This document shows, piece by piece, positions 1,193-8,825 of a DNA stretch of 64,000 nucleotides; the stretch's first letter is position 1, and each line of letters begins with the position of its first letter. The notes under the pieces are model-generated. The model saw nothing but the letters and a program-made list of their open reading frames with translations. It did no database searches and was not told the origin of the DNA. The stretch is from assembly GCA_947501555.1 (NCBI GenBank), contig CANMWG010000001.1, positions 186,001-250,000 of the forward strand. The letters run 5' to 3'. This DNA is from an uncultured Paracoccaceae bacterium. GTDB lineage: Bacteria > Pseudomonadota > Alphaproteobacteria > Rhodobacterales > Rhodobacteraceae. Made by a program: the position numbers and the translations under genes.

Positions 1193-3571
1193 ATGAGCAA
1201 TTTCTCCGAAGATGATGCCTTCGAGGCCGCCGTCCCGCTAAGCCAACAGGCCATGGCGCGGCCTGCCATGACCCATCTCGAGGGGCTGAACCCGGCGCAA
1301 CGCGAAGCCGTTGAGACGCTGAGCGGTCCGGTTTTGATGCTGGCCGGGGCAGGGACCGGCAAAACCAAGGCGCTGACATCGCGTATTGCCCATTTGCTGG
1401 CGACAGGCACTGCAAGGCCGCATGAAATTCTGGCCGTGACCTTCACCAATAAGGCCGCGCGCGAGATGAAGACGCGGATCGGCAGCCATATGGGCGAAGC
1501 GGTTGAAGGGATGCCGTGGCTGGGCACCTTTCACTCGGTTTGCGCGAAATTGCTGCGGCGGCATGCCGAACTGGTTAATTTGAAGTCTAACTTCACTATC
1601 CTGGACACCGACGACCAAATCCGGCTGATGAAACAGCTTATTCAGGCGACCGGGATTGATGAAAAACGCTGGCCGCCGCGCATGCTGTCGGGCATCATCG
1701 ATGGCTGGAAGAACAAGGCTTACACGCCCGACAAGGTCCCTGTTGCCGATAGCGGGGCATTTGATCACAAAGGGGTGGAGCTTTACGCGGCCTATCAATC
1801 CCGCCTGCGCGACCTGAACGCCGTGGATTTTGGCGACATCCTGTTGCACATGGTCACAATCTTCCAAACCCACCCGGACGTGTTGGAGCAATACCAACGG
1901 TGGTTCCGCTACATCCTCGTGGACGAATACCAAGATACAAACGTCGCCCAATATTTGTGGCTGCGGTTGCTTGCGGGCGGGCACAAAAATATTTGCTGCG
2001 TGGGCGATGACGACCAATCCATCTACGGCTGGCGCGGGGCCGAAGTGGGGAATATCCTGCGGTTTGAGGCAGATTTCCCCGGTGCTCATGTCGTTCGGCT
2101 GGAGGAAAACTACCGTTCGACGCCGCATATCCTCGCCGCCGCCTCTGGGGTGATTGCGGCCAACAAAGGCCGGCTCGGCAAGACCTTGTTCACCAGCCGC
2201 GAGGACGGGGAAAAAGTCCGCCTGATCGGTCATTGGGACGGAGAAGAAGAGGCGCGCTGGATTGGCGAAGAGGTCGAGGCGATGCAGCGCGGTACGCGCG
2301 GCATGCACCCGATGAGCCTTGATAACATGGCCATCCTTGTCCGGGCATCGCACCAGATGCGCGCGTTTGAAGATCGGTTCCTGACCATCGGGCTGCCCTA
2401 CCGGGTCATTGGCGGGCCGCGTTTCTACGAACGCATGGAAATTCGGGACGCCATGGCCTATTTCCGGCTGGCCGTCAGCCCCGAGGATGATCTGGCGTTC
2501 GAGCGGATCGTCAATACGCCCAAGCGTGGCCTCGGCGACAAGGCAGTGCAAAAGATTCACGAAACTGCCCGCTCCAATGGTGTGTCCTTGGTCGAAGGCG
2601 CGCGGCTTGTCTGTCTGGGCAAACTGTTGGGCGGTAAGGGGCTGAAAGAACTGACCATTCTGGTTGACGGACTTGATCGTTGGGCGGCGCAGGTTCGGTC
2701 CGAGGCAGACACCCATGTCGAACTGGCCGAGATGATATTGGACGAATCCGGCTACACCGGTTTCTGGCAAAATGACAAAACGCCCGAGGCACCTGGGCGG
2801 CTCGAAAACCTCAAAGAACTGGTCAAAGCGCTGGAAAACTTCGAAAACCTGCAAGGGTTCCTCGAACACGTCAGCCTGATCATGGACAACGAACAAGAAG
2901 AGCAGGGTGAGAAGGTCAGCATTATGACCCTGCACGCGGCCAAGGGCCTCGAATTCCCCGCCGTGTTCCTTCCTGGCTGGGAAGACGGGCTGTTCCCGTC
3001 GCAACGATCCATGGATGAAAGCGGGGTCAAGGGGCTCGAGGAAGAACGACGCTTGGCCTACGTGGGCATCACCCGGGCAGAGGAAATCTGCACGATATCA
3101 TTCGCCGCAAACCGACGGGTCTACGGGCAATGGCAATCGCAAATGCCATCGCGCTTCATCGACGAATTGCCGCAAGATCATGTTGAGGTACTGACGCCCC
3201 CGGGACTGTACGGCGGCGGCTACGGGGCAGCGGCAGCCTCACCCGCGACACAAGGTATGATGGGATCAGACCTACATGAAAAGGCGCATAAGGCAGATGT
3301 CTATAACTCGCCGGGTTGGAAACGGCTGCAAAGCAGAAGCCAGCAACGGGGCATGTCGATGCCTTCTGAAGCGCGGAATATGACCATCGATCTAGATGCG
3401 GTCAGCGCCTTCACCGAAGGCGACCGGGTGTTCCACCAAAAATTCGGCTACGGCGAAGTGATGGGGATCGAAGGGGACAAACTGGTCATCGAATTCGACA
3501 AGGCGGGGTCAAAACACGTGGTGGCGCGATTTATTGTCAGCGCTGAGCAGGCGAACGACGTGCCGTTCTAA
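1193..3571 (+). CDS. uvrD: UvrD/PcrA-type superfamily 1 DNA helicase
   Basis: ATP-driven 3'-5' DNA helicase for nucleotide excision repair, mismatch repair and removal of RecA or stalled complexes. At 792 residues it has the usual size. Walker A AGAGTGKT lies at residues 51-58, the Walker B/motif II VDEYQDTN near 243-249, QSIYGWRGA (motif III) near 276-284, and motif VI YVGITRAEE near 622-630. The C-terminal GDRVFHQKFGYGEV... segment near 743-781 is the Tudor-like RNA-polymerase/DNA-binding domain seen in PcrA and UvrD. The first 25 residues before MTHLEGLNPAQREAV are an acidic extension, so the ATG at residue 26 is an alternative start. It converges on the hydroquinone reductase gene with a 4-bp tail overlap. 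Whether it is better called PcrA or UvrD is not decidable here. Confidence 0.95.
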   Translation: MSNFSEDDAFEAAVPLSQQAMARPAMTHLEGLNPAQREAVETLSGPVLMLAGAGTGKTKALTSRIAHLLATGTARPHEILAVTFTNKAAREMKTRIGSHMGEAVEGMPWLGTFHSVCAKLLRRHAELVNLKSNFTILDTDDQIRLMKQLIQATGIDEKRWPPRMLSGIIDGWKNKAYTPDKVPVADSGAFDHKGVELYAAYQSRLRDLNAVDFGDILLHMVTIFQTHPDVLEQYQRWFRYILVDEYQDTNVAQYLWLRLLAGGHKNICCVGDDDQSIYGWRGAEVGNILRFEADFPGAHVVRLEENYRSTPHILAAASGVIAANKGRLGKTLFTSREDGEKVRLIGHWDGEEEARWIGEEVEAMQRGTRGMHPMSLDNMAILVRASHQMRAFEDRFLTIGLPYRVIGGPRFYERMEIRDAMAYFRLAVSPEDDLAFERIVNTPKRGLGDKAVQKIHETARSNGVSLVEGARLVCLGKLLGGKGLKELTILVDGLDRWAAQVRSEADTHVELAEMILDESGYTGFWQNDKTPEAPGRLENLKELVKALENFENLQGFLEHVSLIMDNEQEEQGEKVSIMTLHAAKGLEFPAVFLPGWEDGLFPSQRSMDESGVKGLEEERRLAYVGITRAEEICTISFAANRRVYGQWQSQMPSRFIDELPQDHVEVLTPPGLYGGGYGAAAASPATQGMMGSDLHEKAHKADVYNSPGWKRLQSRSQQRGMSMPSEARNMTIDLDAVSAFTEGDRVFHQKFGYGEVMGIEGDKLVIEFDKAGSKHVVARFIVSAEQANDVPF

Positions 3572-4482
3572 GGCAACGACCAATCAATCGCAGGCGGCTG
3601 GCTGACAATACCGCGCGGATTGTGATCGCCATCGTTCAGAAAGTACCCACGCATGATTTCGTCAAAGTCGACAGTGTCTGCAACCCCGGGCATGTTGTAG
3701 ATCCTGCGTGTGTGCAGCCAAAGGTTTTCAAATTCAGTCAGGCGGTGGCGGGTGCAGCGAAAATGCGTGACATAGACCGTATCAAAACGGACAAGCGTTG
3801 CGAAAAGGCGCAGGTCGGCCACGGTAAGAGATTCGCCCAGTAAAAATCGGCGATCAGAAAGATGCCTGTCCAGATCAGCCATGGTCTCAAAAACCTGATC
3901 GACGGCTGTGTCATATACATCCTGTCGTTGGGCTAGCCCGGCACGGTAAACCGCGTTGGACAGGCCGTCATATATTTTGGATAAATAGACCGATAGCGCA
4001 GGTGCCGCATTGTCTGGGCACAGCTTTGGACCTTCCCCGAATGCGTCCAATGCTTTGATAATATGTGTAGATTCGTTGCAGATAATGCGCTGCTCGGGGA
4101 TATCCCAAAGGATGGGAACCGTGACGCGTCCGGTATAGTCTGAACGGGTCGCCGTATAAAGTTGGTGCGCATGTGCTGCCCCTAATGATTGTGCGACAGG
4201 CCCCGTAGGATCAAGCGCATAACCTTGGACGCGGGGGCCGATGGCGCGCTGATAGGTGATCTTATCGGACAATCCTTTCAAGACCCAAGTAAGCGTCGCG
4301 GCATGCGACCAAGGGCAACTTGGGGATGCAATAAGCGCAAACGCATCAGGCGCGTCTAACAACCGGCTTTGGGTCGTCTGGTCAATGGCCGCGCCAAACG
4401 TAACTTTTGTTCGGACAAACGCACCGCGCTTGATCTCATTATCGGTGGTGTTTTCCCATTGGCCATTTATCAACAGACCCAT
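3568..4482 (-). CDS. Glutathionyl-hydroquinone reductase (Xi/YqjG-like glutathione transferase)
   Basis: Cytoplasmic thioltransferase that removes glutathione from glutathionyl-hydroquinones. The active-site Cys56 sits in SPSCPWSH (residues 53-60), the counterpart of the ACPWA motif of the family. The C-terminal half carries typical family blocks: YVTHFRCTRHRL, LWLHTRRIYNMPGVADTVDF and the end NPRGIVSQPP. Length of 304 residues is slightly shorter than the usual 310-330. It lies 4 bases after the LysE-type exporter gene on the same strand, so the two may be cotranscribed, although no functional link is known. Its stop overlaps the uvrD stop region. Confidence 0.88.
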   Translation of the reverse strand: MGLLINGQWENTTDNEIKRGAFVRTKVTFGAAIDQTTQSRLLDAPDAFALIASPSCPWSHAATLTWVLKGLSDKITYQRAIGPRVQGYALDPTGPVAQSLGAAHAHQLYTATRSDYTGRVTVPILWDIPEQRIICNESTHIIKALDAFGEGPKLCPDNAAPALSVYLSKIYDGLSNAVYRAGLAQRQDVYDTAVDQVFETMADLDRHLSDRRFLLGESLTVADLRLFATLVRFDTVYVTHFRCTRHRLTEFENLWLHTRRIYNMPGVADTVDFDEIMRGYFLNDGDHNPRGIVSQPPAIDWSLP

Positions 4483-5669: not shown

Positions 5670-6131
5670 TCACCCTCTGCCACGATAAGGTGGTACGCCT
5701 TGGTCGGGGATCCACACGCCTTCGGGCATCGAGCCGGTTTGCCAGAACACGTCGATTGGAATGCCGCCACGCGGATACCAGTAACCGCCGATCCGCAACC
5801 ATTGGGGATTTAGTAAATCGACCAATCGCCGCGCAATAGATATAGTGCAGTCTTCATGGAAGGCCCCATGATTACGGTAGGATCCTAAGAACAGCTTGAG
5901 CGATTTGGATTCGACCAAAAATTCGCCCGGTACATAATCAAGCACCAGATGGGCAAAGTCAGGTTGACCAGTCATGGGACAAAGCGACGTGAACTCAGGC
6001 GCCGTGAAACGTACGCAATAGGCCACGTCGGCTTGAGGATTTGAGACACGTTCAAGCACCGCATCTTCGGGCGACGTCGGCAGGTCGGTTTGGCCGCCCA
6101 ATTGTTTTAAATCACTGTAAATCGTTTCCAT
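5670..6131 (-). CDS. queF: NADPH-dependent 7-cyano-7-deazaguanine reductase
   Basis: Reduces preQ0 to preQ1, the last free-base step before tRNA insertion in queuosine synthesis. It is the short, YkvM-type QueF of 153 residues. The catalytic Cys51 and Asp58 lie in [13 protein letters not shown], and the QueF motif [22 protein letters not shown] follows at 73-94. The ATG at 6131 is chosen because upstream codons, though open, read through the end of queE and match nothing in the family. Last gene of a queC-queD-queE-queF operon, 19 bases after queE. Confidence 0.96.
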
Positions 6132-6150
6132 CGCTGTCTCCTTGAGCGGG

Positions 6151-6861
6151 TCAGACCCCGCGTTTGTTTCCCCAAAGCAGGACGTGCAACTGCGGCAAAA
6201 TTCGCGGTGCGAACCAGCCATCGTGCATTGTCTTATCGACCAACCACAACAGCTTGTCCGCCAGAACCTGAGGATGAAGCGCGACTTCGGGATCGAACTC
6301 AAGATTGCCGGGTTGTAGGAACAGAGGCAATTGGGGGTATTTGCCCGCCGCCTCTTGCGCCCAAGCGTAATCCGTCTCGTCGAAGATCACGATCTTCATG
6401 ACGGTGCTGTCTGCCTCTTTGGCCGCGCGCAGGCATGCATCAAACGCGTCCCAAACAACGACTTCGCCGCTTGAAGGTGGTTTTGGGCTTAGAACCAACA
6501 TGTCGAGATCGCCAAACCATGGCTTTGCAATCGACCCTTGGGTTTCGCAGGCAAAGCGGTAGCCGTCTGCATGGCCAAGCGCGATTAATTGCGTAAAATC
6601 TTGGATGGCTGGATTGCCACCCGACAGTGACACAGTCAGTGGCCTGCCCTTGGACAAGCGCTGTACTTCGGCCCAAACGGCATCGGTGCCCATCGCGGCC
6701 CAAGTGTGGCGATAAGCGGAATCCACCGCATGCAGACTATCACACCATGCGCAGCGATAATCGCAACCGCCTGTGCGCACAAAGACAGTGGGTTCGCCGA
6801 TCAAGGCGCCCTCGCCTTGTATCGTTGGACCGAAAATTTCTGCGATGCGTAACTGGCTCAT
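6151..6861 (-). CDS. queE: 7-carboxy-7-deazaguanine synthase (radical SAM)
   Basis: Radical SAM enzyme that ring-contracts 6-carboxytetrahydropterin to 7-carboxy-7-deazaguanine. The iron-sulfur cysteines are Cys33, Cys37 and Cys40 in [13 protein letters not shown], the CX3CX2C motif of the family. The N-terminus [24 protein letters not shown] is typical, and [11 protein letters not shown] supplies the SAM-binding glycines. The start at 6861 overlaps the queD stop by 4 bases (ATGA), so translation is probably coupled. Length 236 residues. Confidence 0.96.
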
Positions 6862-7211
6862 GGGCGGTACTCGGCCCAAGTTTTGGGTGTCTCGCTCACC
6901 TTTACCGCGGTTGTTTCCGGCCAAATGGCGGCACACCAATCATAGAAATGGCGGGCCATATTTTCGCCGGTTGAAGGCACGTCCAGAACGTCATTCAGAT
7001 GACGATGATCAAACGTGTCGTCGATATAGGTCTTGAGCGGTTTCAGCTCTCCATAGTCGCGTATAAACCCATCGCTATTGAGCGTCGTTGAGGCGAGTTC
7101 CACAATAACAATGTAGTTGTGCCCATGCAGTCGCGCGCACTGGTGATCATCGGGCAGATGGGAAAGTTGGTGGGAGGCTGAGAAGTGGAATTCTTTTGTG
7201 ATCCGATACAT
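6858..7211 (-). CDS. queD: 6-carboxy-5,6,7,8-tetrahydropterin synthase
   Basis: Converts 7,8-dihydroneopterin triphosphate to 6-carboxytetrahydropterin. The zinc ligands are His14 (SASHQL), His29 and His31 (CARLHGHNY), and the catalytic Cys25 stands just before them. A second His-rich block, [23 protein letters not shown], matches the family. At 117 residues it is a normal QueD. It overlaps queC by one base and queE by four. Confidence 0.96.
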
Positions 7212-7912
7212 TAGCCACGATCCTTCTTAGCGATCGCCGCAACCCAGAAATCAGGGTCAGCATAAATCGTGGGGTCCATGACATCCGCTAGATGAAACGC
7301 TTCGCGCCGTTCCACGCAAGTGCCACAGCGACCGCAATGGGTGTCGCCACCTTTGTAACAGGACCACGTTTCTGCAAAGGGCGTGTCGTGAAGCGCCCCT
7401 TGTGTGACGATGTCAGCTTTTGTGCGATGAACGAAAGGCGTATAAAGCGACACATCCGCATAGCCATCAAGGGCGGCTTTTTGCATGGCGTCAAAGGCTT
7501 CGGTAAAAGCAGGCCGGCAATCGGGATAGATAAAGTGATCACCGCCATGCACCGCCGTCGCCACGGCTTGATCGTCGTTTGCAGCCGCTACGCCAAAGGC
7601 CACTGCCAGCATGATCGCATTGCGGTTTGGCACGACGGTGACGCGCATGCTGTCTTCTTCGTAATGCCCATCGGGGACATCAATATCATCGGTCAGGGCA
7701 GAGCCAGTAAGCGCCGCACCAATCCCGCGCAGATCAATAACATCGTGAGGGACATCAAGCCGTTTCGCACACATCGCGGCATAGTCCAATTCCTTGCGAT
7801 GGCGTTGGCCATAGTCGAAGGACACAAGGCGGGTCAGTTGCTGTTTCTGCGCAACCATATGCGCAAGTGACACTGAATCGAGCCCGCCGGAGCAGATGAC
7901 AATCGTTTTCAT
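7211..7912 (-). CDS. queC: 7-cyano-7-deazaguanine (preQ0) synthase
   Basis: ATP-dependent enzyme that turns 7-carboxy-7-deazaguanine and ammonia into preQ0. The PP-loop SGGLDS is at residues 8-13 and the structural zinc site is made by Cys185, Cys193, Cys196 and Cys199 (CYKGGDTHCGRCGTC). Length 233 residues is standard. It is the first gene of the que operon and has a plausible promoter with an overlapping dyad about 50-80 bases upstream. Confidence 0.96.
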   Translation of the reverse strand: MKTIVICSGGLDSVSLAHMVAQKQQLTRLVSFDYGQRHRKELDYAAMCAKRLDVPHDVIDLRGIGAALTGSALTDDIDVPDGHYEEDSMRVTVVPNRNAIMLAVAFGVAAANDDQAVATAVHGGDHFIYPDCRPAFTEAFDAMQKAALDGYADVSLYTPFVHRTKADIVTQGALHDTPFAETWSCYKGGDTHCGRCGTCVERREAFHLADVMDPTIYADPDFWVAAIAKKDRG

Positions 7913-8169: not shown

Positions 8170-8208
8170 AAAAAAACGGTCATGCCCGGGAGGAGGTGGG
8201 CATGACCG
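8170..8208 (-). terminator. Last array hairpin plus T-tract: intrinsic terminator
   Basis: On the minus strand an 11-bp perfect stem, CGGTCATGCCC with GGGCATGACCG, encloses the loop ACCTCCTCCC and is followed at once by seven T (8176-8170). This is both the seventh small-RNA unit of the array and a strong Rho-independent terminator for the whole transcript. Confidence 0.8.
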
Positions 8209-8470
8209 CTTTTATTATCAGCGCCCCCTTGCGTCTCGGGAGGAGAAGAAGCAAGGCGCGTCCTCGCTGACATTGCTCGGGAGGAGGTGAGCGCTGCCTG
8301 CGGTATAATCGGTTCCAACCCGGGAGGAGGTGGGCGGTTCCGAAACTGTTAAAAAGTGGCGACATCCGGGAGGAGGTGGATGCCGCCACCTTATTAATGA
8401 CCCTTTGCTCAGGGAGGAGGAGAGAGCGCGGGGTCGGTCAAATCTGCCCTACTGGGAGGAGGAGGCAGAT
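8170..8470 (-). ncRNA. Array of seven cuckoo/CcsR-like small RNA hairpins with CCUCCUCCC loops
   Basis: Read on the minus strand, seven consecutive hairpins follow the DUF1127 gene. Unit spans are 8442-8470, 8399-8435, 8356-8389, 8311-8342, 8275-8292 (core), 8221-8259 and 8177-8208. Each has a different stem but the same loop, CCUCCUCCC (CUCCUCCC only in the 8221-8259 unit). The stems at 8356-8389, 8442-8470 and 8177-8208 are near perfect; those at 8275 and 8311 are weak. This matches the CcsR1-4 RNAs of Rhodobacter sphaeroides, which are cotranscribed with a DUF1127 protein gene, processed from that transcript and induced by stress; the loop is an anti-Shine-Dalgarno sequence. R. sphaeroides has four copies, so seven is a larger set. 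The 8356-8389 unit is followed by TTTTT and may terminate part of the transcripts. Family membership is strong; stress induction here is inferred. Confidence 0.88.
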
Positions 8471-8483
8471 CCGATTCTTGAAT

Positions 8484-8699
8484 TCAGTGACCATACGCAG
8501 CTTCGATTGCGACGGATTTGATCATTGCCCGGCTCATGCCAAGGTCTGAAAGATCACGGTTTGACAAGCTTTCCAGCTCAGCCAGCGTTGTACGGTAAAC
8601 TTTGCGCTTTTCGGCTTTCTCGGCCCAGACAGCGCGAAGCGCTGCGAAACGGTCAACAAAGGAAGAGCCTGCAAAGGATGTATCGGTATTAAAAGCCAT
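8484..8699 (-). CDS. DUF1127 small protein (CcaF1-like), leader gene of the CcsR array
   Basis: Small basic protein of 71 residues. The C-terminal DUF1127 block is clear: RKVYRTTLAELESLSNRDLSDLGMSRAMIKSVAIEAAYGH (residues 32-71), with the Arg-rich start and the LSNRDLxDLG core. In Rhodobacter sphaeroides the homologue next to the CcsR RNAs, CcaF1, is an RNA-binding protein that affects their maturation; the same role is inferred here. The stop codon is only 13 bases before the first hairpin of the array, so both are surely on one transcript. The start has only a weak purine-rich ribosome site (GAGAAAG). Confidence 0.9.
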   Translation of the reverse strand: MAFNTDTSFAGSSFVDRFAALRAVWAEKAEKRKVYRTTLAELESLSNRDLSDLGMSRAMIKSVAIEAAYGH

Positions 8700-8752
8700 T
8701 TGCTCTTTTCTTTCTCAATTCGGCGGAACCATTCTGTTCCTGTTGCAACGAA

Positions 8753-8780
8753 TATGTATGATTATGCTGCAGTTGCACAA
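8753..8780 (-). promoter_or_regulatory. Candidate promoter of the DUF1127-CcsR transcript
   Basis: On the minus strand TTGTGC (8780-8775) and TACATA (8758-8753) are 16 bases apart, about 50 bases before the DUF1127 start. The Rhodobacter counterpart is read by the heat-shock sigma factors RpoHI/RpoHII; the sequence here does not prove which sigma factor is used. A perfect 7-bp dyad, TTCCGCA/TGCGGAA (8788-8794 and 8804-8810), lies just upstream. Confidence 0.3.
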
Positions 8781-8825
8781 TGCTCGTTTCCGCAATGCTG
8801 CTATGCGGAATTTGCATAAGCACTG

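Follow-up and report, generated by a model that had tools for sequence, protein, structure and literature searches.

What kind of element is a row of hairpins that present nearly one and the same anti-Shine-Dalgarno (anti-SD) loop behind a small DUF1127 gene, and why are there seven of them? In the window (the whole stretch of 64,000 nt that was analysed, from an uncultured Paracoccaceae bacterium), an earlier note had read such a row as a cuckoo/CcsR small-RNA array of seven minus-strand hairpins, six with like loops and one variant, directly behind a DUF1127 gene. Count, loops and position all hold, over a slightly larger extent (8170-8474): from 8474 to 8170 on the minus strand, seven consecutive hairpins follow each other at inter-loop distances of 41-50 nt, with CCUCCUCCC as the loop in six and CUCCUCCC in one (near 8246), and hairpin 1 starts 9 nt past the stop codon of the DUF1127 gene (PF06568).

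Layout and family membership

Two sets of loci were used for comparison. The 24 genus loci are those of the window genome, most likely that of a marine Yoonia, and of 23 of the 24 Yoonia-type congeners searched; the remaining congener (G001), with a 33-bit match and one motif (L034), was excluded. Two further matches (L036 and L038) were repeat matches on arrays already included, and L037 (G003:C5), an additional ar14 locus with three motifs from a congener whose genome carries a seven-motif array as well, was excluded. The 76 named Rhodobacteraceae loci were found via the DUF1127 protein; related species are repeated among them, several genera occur many times, and the set has four loci in common with the genus set. 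The features of the operon are as follows, with counts referring to the genus loci.

8793..8816, minus strand: VtlR/LsrB-like box, by sequence match only, with TGCA-N6-GCAT (8803-8816) overlapping a 15-mer (8793-8807)
8764..8777, minus strand: TGCA-N6-GCAT again, 39 nt downstream of the first copy; overlaps the presumed -35
8752..8760, minus strand: presumed -10, CATACATAT, placed by position; its CAT is largely conserved in the genus alignment
8484..8699, minus strand: DUF1127 gene, 71 aa (PF06568, E 2.8e-9), in the ccaF1 position
8438..8474, minus strand: hairpin 1, loop CCUCCUCCC, exact in 17/24 loci; both-side changes in 9/12 pairs of helix 1
8398..8435, minus strand: hairpin 2, loop CCUCCUCCC, exact in 19/24 loci and shortened to CCUCC in 4; lowest conservation
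8351..8392, minus strand: hairpin 3, loop CCUCCUCCC, long stem; T5 tract in 1/24 loci (the window genome)
8309..8343, minus strand: hairpin 4, loop CCUCCUCCC
8265..8302, minus strand: hairpin 5, loop CCUCCUCCC, intact in 24/24 loci
8261..8265, minus strand: GAGGA 3' of hairpin 5, complementary to the loops; kept in 22/24 loci
8221..8259, minus strand: hairpin 6, loop CUCCUCCC
8170..8213, minus strand: hairpin 7, loop CCUCCUCCC, long stem followed by T7; doubles, by sequence, as an intrinsic terminator

The core motif is concentrated at this place: CCTCCTCCC matches six times in the window, on the minus strand only and between 8188 and 8462 (mean of 0.42 in 100 shuffles, none reaching 6), and the whole genome holds 12 exact motifs, six of them inside the array. 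Upstream lies a divergent ParA/NUBPL-type gene (here labelled mrp/apbC) and downstream queC; an mrp-type neighbour is present at 23 of the 24 genus loci and 61 of the 76 named loci (divergent to the array at 59), and queC occurs within the 3-kb genus loci in the window genome only. The tblastn search that detected the DUF1127 gene at 23 of the 24 genus loci found none at the remaining one, that of G007 (L016), although box and seven motifs are in place there beside the divergent mrp-type gene; by this case, the array is separable from the DUF1127 gene. A queuosine cluster extends downstream on the minus strand (about 5670-7912), with QueC and QueF assigned by Pfam and, presumably, QueD and QueE as further members. 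Elsewhere in the same genome, a second small DUF1127-like gene (G000:C1:1056674-1056909; L176, L198) scored 22.5 bits, below the cut-off, and has a similar palindromic promoter box.

The covariance-model check that the earlier note had proposed was run with the Rfam ar14 model (RF02344) and was positive for one part of the array: hairpins 1-3 (8352-8479) scored 61.6 bits, above the gathering cut-off of 58.8, and hairpins 4-7 (8172-8308) scored 54.0 bits, below it. Among 41 genomes searched (25 of this genus and 16 of other families), 27 match and 10 pass the cut-off, and no ar14 match was obtained in the 14 control genomes. For ar15/AbcR (RF02345), a search of the entire own genome with E values up to 0.1 gave no match. 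The ar14 trait of CCUCCUCCC hairpins with variable stems is seen here as six exact loops and one CUCCUCCC on covarying stems, and the cuckoo traits (adjacent hairpins, a loop motif, divergent stems and proximity to DUF1127) are all present. On the ar14 match, the DUF1127 link and the compensatory stem changes described below, the assignment of the array to the ar14/cuckoo/CcsR kind is well supported, the earlier note having proposed cuckoo/CcsR.

RS0680a of Rhodobacter sphaeroides is a member of the CcsR1-4 set. The cuckoo RNA family, attributed to Reinkensmeier and Giegerich 2015, reportedly has 2 to 4 hairpins, a number that the seven found here exceed; adjacent hairpins, a common loop motif and an association with DUF1127 (the 'CIN1 locus', cited in PMC10253847) are shared with it. 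The arrangement also resembles that of CcsR1-4 and ccaF1 (RSP_6037) in R. sphaeroides, described as a DUF1127 gene followed by homologous RNAs and a Rho-independent terminator (PMC10253847), with CcsR1-4 processed from the ccaF1 3' UTR with RNase E (PMC10253847, PMC8625941). It differs in having seven hairpins where four RNAs are named, the R. sphaeroides set being taken from its published description. The contrast of seven with four that the earlier note had drawn is a weak argument for novelty, as hairpins were there set against RNAs: CcsR1-4 are four processed RNAs (PMC10253847), and four CcsR RNAs should not be equated with four hairpins because RS0680a is described with two anti-SD stem-loops, compared with three or four hairpins in the anti-SD loop family of Rhizobiales (PMC3927594). 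In PMC10746234, ar14 is described as three CCUCCUCCC hairpins, with NfeR1 of Sinorhizobium meliloti as founder; NfeR1, which requires LsrB, silences ntrB as well as two ABC substrate-binding proteins. Our array shares with NfeR1 the loop CCUCCUCCC per hairpin, variable stems, a TGCA-N6-GCAT box and transport targets (predicted here), and differs in that NfeR1 is a 123-nt RNA with three hairpins and here seven lie behind a DUF1127 gene. AbcR1/AbcR2 (ar15) and SisA-D are likewise sRNAs with an anti-SD motif, AbcR controlling nutrient uptake (PMC8844928, PMC12559287), but have another architecture, and the own genome has no ar15 match.

Folding, covariation and termination

Folding of the 324-nt region gives -131.4 kcal/mol (z = -5.6), a stability that none of 100 shuffles attains. 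Taken singly, the stems of hairpins 1, 3, 6 and 7 are beyond chance (P 0.001, 0, 0.005 and 0; 4000 shuffled flanks) and the inner stems of hairpins 2, 4 and 5 are not (P 0.23, 0.34 and 0.23; 4000 shuffled flanks); for these three, the support is comparative and comes from the alignment. All seven positions could be aligned across the 24 genus loci, and the window's own sequence provided the reference structure for the covariation test. Pairing under this structure is retained in 89.9% of pair cells and is weakest in hairpin 2, whose two helices are 70 and 61% paired. Both sides have changed in 41 of 84 pairs; shuffles gave a mean of 21.3, with none of 500 reaching the observed value, and slid controls gave 11-16. 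Compensatory stem changes in relatives, the lack of which the earlier note had named as counting against its reading, are thus present. RNAalifold, applied to the same alignment, yielded 67 pairs with both-side changes in 34.

In the predicted fold of the combined DUF1127-array mRNA, loops 4 and 5 are unpaired with probabilities of 0.63 and 0.47 and the remaining loops with 0.81-1.00. The GAGGA at 8261-8265 is able to pair with loop 5, with a maximum pair probability of 0.41, and on this model it might be a self-target. A tract of at least five T follows hairpin 7 at 24/24 genus loci; the terminator scan, which accepts loops of up to 8 only, did not list hairpin 7 on the minus strand. A second terminator at hairpin 3, giving transcripts of three and four hairpins, was considered and dropped, the T5 tract occurring at only 1/24 loci.

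Promoter box and predicted targets

Across the genus the DUF1127 gene has a conserved upstream region, whose most upstream element resembles a VtlR/LsrB-type LysR site. The 15-mer at 8793-8807 agrees at 12 of 15 positions with the VtlR motif printed for Brucella, taken as its reverse complement, and TGCA-N6-GCAT is the LsrB form published at NfeR1 (PMC10746234); in Brucella, activation by VtlR is reported for AbcR2 and for three DUF1127 genes (PMC12595884). The control windows, mostly coding DNA, were drawn from these same loci, and against them both forms stand out: TGCA-N6-GCAT lies upstream at 22/24 genus loci and 69/76 named loci versus 11/2483 control windows, and the VtlR motif with at least 12/15 matches at 23/24 genus loci and 70/76 named loci versus 7/927 (at least 13/15: 57/76 named loci versus 0/927). 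At L016, one of the two loci missed for TGCA-N6-GCAT, the box is present nearer the array, the scanned stretch lying too far upstream there. The presumed -10 was not reported by the sigma-70 scan. LsrB, which adjoins trxB, was sought beside that gene in the own genome; the neighbouring genes look, by eye, like those for an Lrp-type regulator and an acetyltransferase, and the search gave no VtlR/LsrB orthologue. For the R. sphaeroides ccaF1 operon an RpoHI/RpoHII promoter is reported, in contrast to the VtlR/LsrB-like box here. Neither a VtlR/LsrB-like box over the DUF1127-array operon family-wide nor CcsR together with LsrB or VtlR was found in the literature searched, which omitted key CcsR and cuckoo papers and leaves novelty unproved. 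Another published VtlR form, GCAT-N3-TG-N3-T (PMC7486931), was compared by eye with the window's block and set aside as a misfit, the Brucella 15-mer and the LsrB form being the ones that fit.

Perfect complements of the loop were sought at ribosome-binding sites. GGGAGGAG lies 3-11 nt before an ATG at 13 places in the own genome, the reversed pattern at none; ten of these places precede genes, two are antisense to the array and one is not a gene. Two of the six exact motif copies outside the array recur among these predicted target places. Transport components account for six of the ten genes (DctQ, DctP, TctC, TctB, Peripla_BP_6 and SBP_bac_8), and the other four comprise two AMP-binding acyl-CoA synthetase-type genes, one luciferase-like monooxygenase and one DUF2147. 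With the control Shine-Dalgarno sequence AAGGAGA (first 30 of 101 places, 29 located, 23 frames of at least 60 aa; spacer 3-9 as against 3-11 for targets), transport components were found in 4 of 23 frames (one-sided Fisher P 0.023 versus 6/10), and omission of three control frames without a family match gave P 0.039. As a prediction only, the perfect sites lean to uptake systems, a modest tendency over ten genes (P 0.02-0.04), and the predicted targets resemble the transport targets of NfeR1 and AbcR. A search of 15 congeners and 9 out-of-family genomes supplied 47 listed places from five congeners, 42 of them with at least 60 aa. Among these 42 genes the same types recur, Peripla_BP_6, AMP-binding, DctP, DctQ and luciferase-like leading the best 25 of 35 families (in a tally of 43 members, one of which is from the window genome); the recurrence is partly inheritance.

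Array size, copy number and working model

The size of the array across Rhodobacteraceae was counted from motifs behind DUF1127 genes, because the hairpin score, with a threshold of at least 9, lies near its null (mean 8.6) and also admits matches without CTCCTCCC (L068, L079). The motif counts are rough and low, as loops with a mutated core are missed and some contigs end early. On these counts the 76 named loci hold 0 motifs in 6 cases, 1-4 in 13, 5-9 in 47 and 10-26 in 10. The earlier note had set seven, as a larger set, against the known four; it is ordinary in the family, 57/76 named loci exceeding four and 44/76 having 6-8. R. capsulatus has 8 motifs at each of two loci (L113, L117), Thioclava has 10, and a single locus, in Alexandriicola marinus LZ-14 (L135, about 3238-4420), has 26, the array being made up largely of a 140-bp three-hairpin unit that is repeated 6.5 times at 97% match. 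By sequence, growth there is in tandem three-hairpin units and Yoonia is the opposite, with fixed positions. Three motifs in a row were found in 165/295 family genomes, some of them (e.g. L068, L079, L087, L096) not of the CTCCTCCC kind; the backward-read control of this search is an unclean null, because the reversed motif also fits arrays.

To account for seven copies, the earlier note had offered dosage or specialised members. Loop exactness over the 24 genus loci is 24 at position 5, 22-23 at positions 3, 4 and 7, 19 at position 2 and 17 at position 1, and at position 6 CUCCUCCC is kept in 19/24 and the full motif found in 4/24. The stems are position-specific: the nearest hairpin elsewhere is that of the same position in 163 of 168 cases, and the overall nearest hairpin is a same-genome sister in 0 of 168. 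By this alignment, seven is an old, frozen number in Yoonia. Such stems would suit seven separate RNAs with different targets or decay rates, as would their uneven conservation, mean orthologue identity running from 0.65 (position 2) to 0.88 (position 7), with hairpins 7 and 3 highest and 2 lowest. All of these values lie above the fourfold-site identity of the DUF1127 gene (0.45 in 21/24 loci, L009, L010 and L016 being left out, the last without the gene), but the two measures are unlike and pairing itself slows stem change, which leaves constraint beyond pairing unproved, and the conservation of hairpin 7 is probably at least partly due to its role as terminator. Moreover, the loops vary little, and experiments on NfeR1 showed its three loops to be redundant (PMC10746234). 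Specialised members are therefore judged unlikely. Because the loops are conserved and those of NfeR1 redundant, dosage is favoured over specialised targets, and the seven copies would mainly provide dosage and redundancy, with stems tuned for stability, processing and termination. The position-specific, fixed stems leave room for differing decay rates, and to that extent this part of the earlier suggestion survives.

From the hairpins, covariation, positional orthology, family match, box and perfect target sites that the sequence contains, the locus probably encodes a CcsR/ar14-type anti-SD small-RNA array in the 3' UTR of the DUF1127 mRNA, for which we infer transcription, regulator, processing, repression and dosage as follows. 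The operon would be turned on by a LysR regulator of the VtlR/LsrB-like kind, perhaps together with a stress sigma factor; a single transcript carrying DUF1127 and the seven hairpins would terminate at hairpin 7, and RNase E would cleave it to stable fragments that hold one or a few hairpins each. The common loop of each fragment would pair with GGGAGGAG-type ribosome-binding sites and block translation, mostly that of uptake systems and of enzymes that form acyl-CoA, the number of copies acting mainly through dosage and redundancy and the fixed stems through stability, processing and termination. The hairpins could instead serve mainly to protect, process or terminate the DUF1127 mRNA or to bind a protein, the loop being a protein site or decoy and not a seed; the terminator-like hairpin 7, the position of the hairpins immediately behind the gene and the RNA binding of CcaF1, a DUF1127 protein (PMC10253847), are in keeping with this. 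However, G007 retains the box and seven motifs with no DUF1127 gene at the locus, and NfeR1 works via base pairing (PMC10746234), which makes such a role quite improbable. Chance repeats or a mobile palindromic repeat, with no RNA function, could likewise give repeated hairpins with a shared core and the tandem expansion seen in one relative, but are scarcely credible for an array that contains half of the 12 exact motifs of its genome, has covarying stems and keeps a fixed site beside the divergent mrp/apbC-type gene at 23/24 genus loci.

If the small-RNA reading holds, a wider one may tentatively be proposed: Rhodobacteraceae might share a DUF1127-anti-SD module, an old operon usually beside mrp/apbC and under a redox regulator of the VtlR/LsrB type, with the length of the array (1 to 26 same-loop hairpins) serving as an evolvable dosage dial, frozen at seven in Yoonia, grown by tandem three-hairpin units in Alexandriicola, separable from DUF1127, and with the GAGGA self-target limiting the active dose. 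The additions made here are the size range, the frozen order, the case without DUF1127 and the VtlR/LsrB-like box. With them, the question of family size no longer rests on a single model species but on a range that can be measured over a bacterial family, and the frozen seven, the tandem 26 and the missing DUF1127 gene offer natural contrasts for copy number as dose versus division of labour. The box would tie these arrays to the LysR regulators by which NfeR1, AbcR and DUF1127 genes are driven in Rhizobiales. At some family loci (such as L049, L065 and L090) the motif spacing alternates between about 40 and 65 nt, which suggests two-hairpin units; the spacing is more even in Yoonia.
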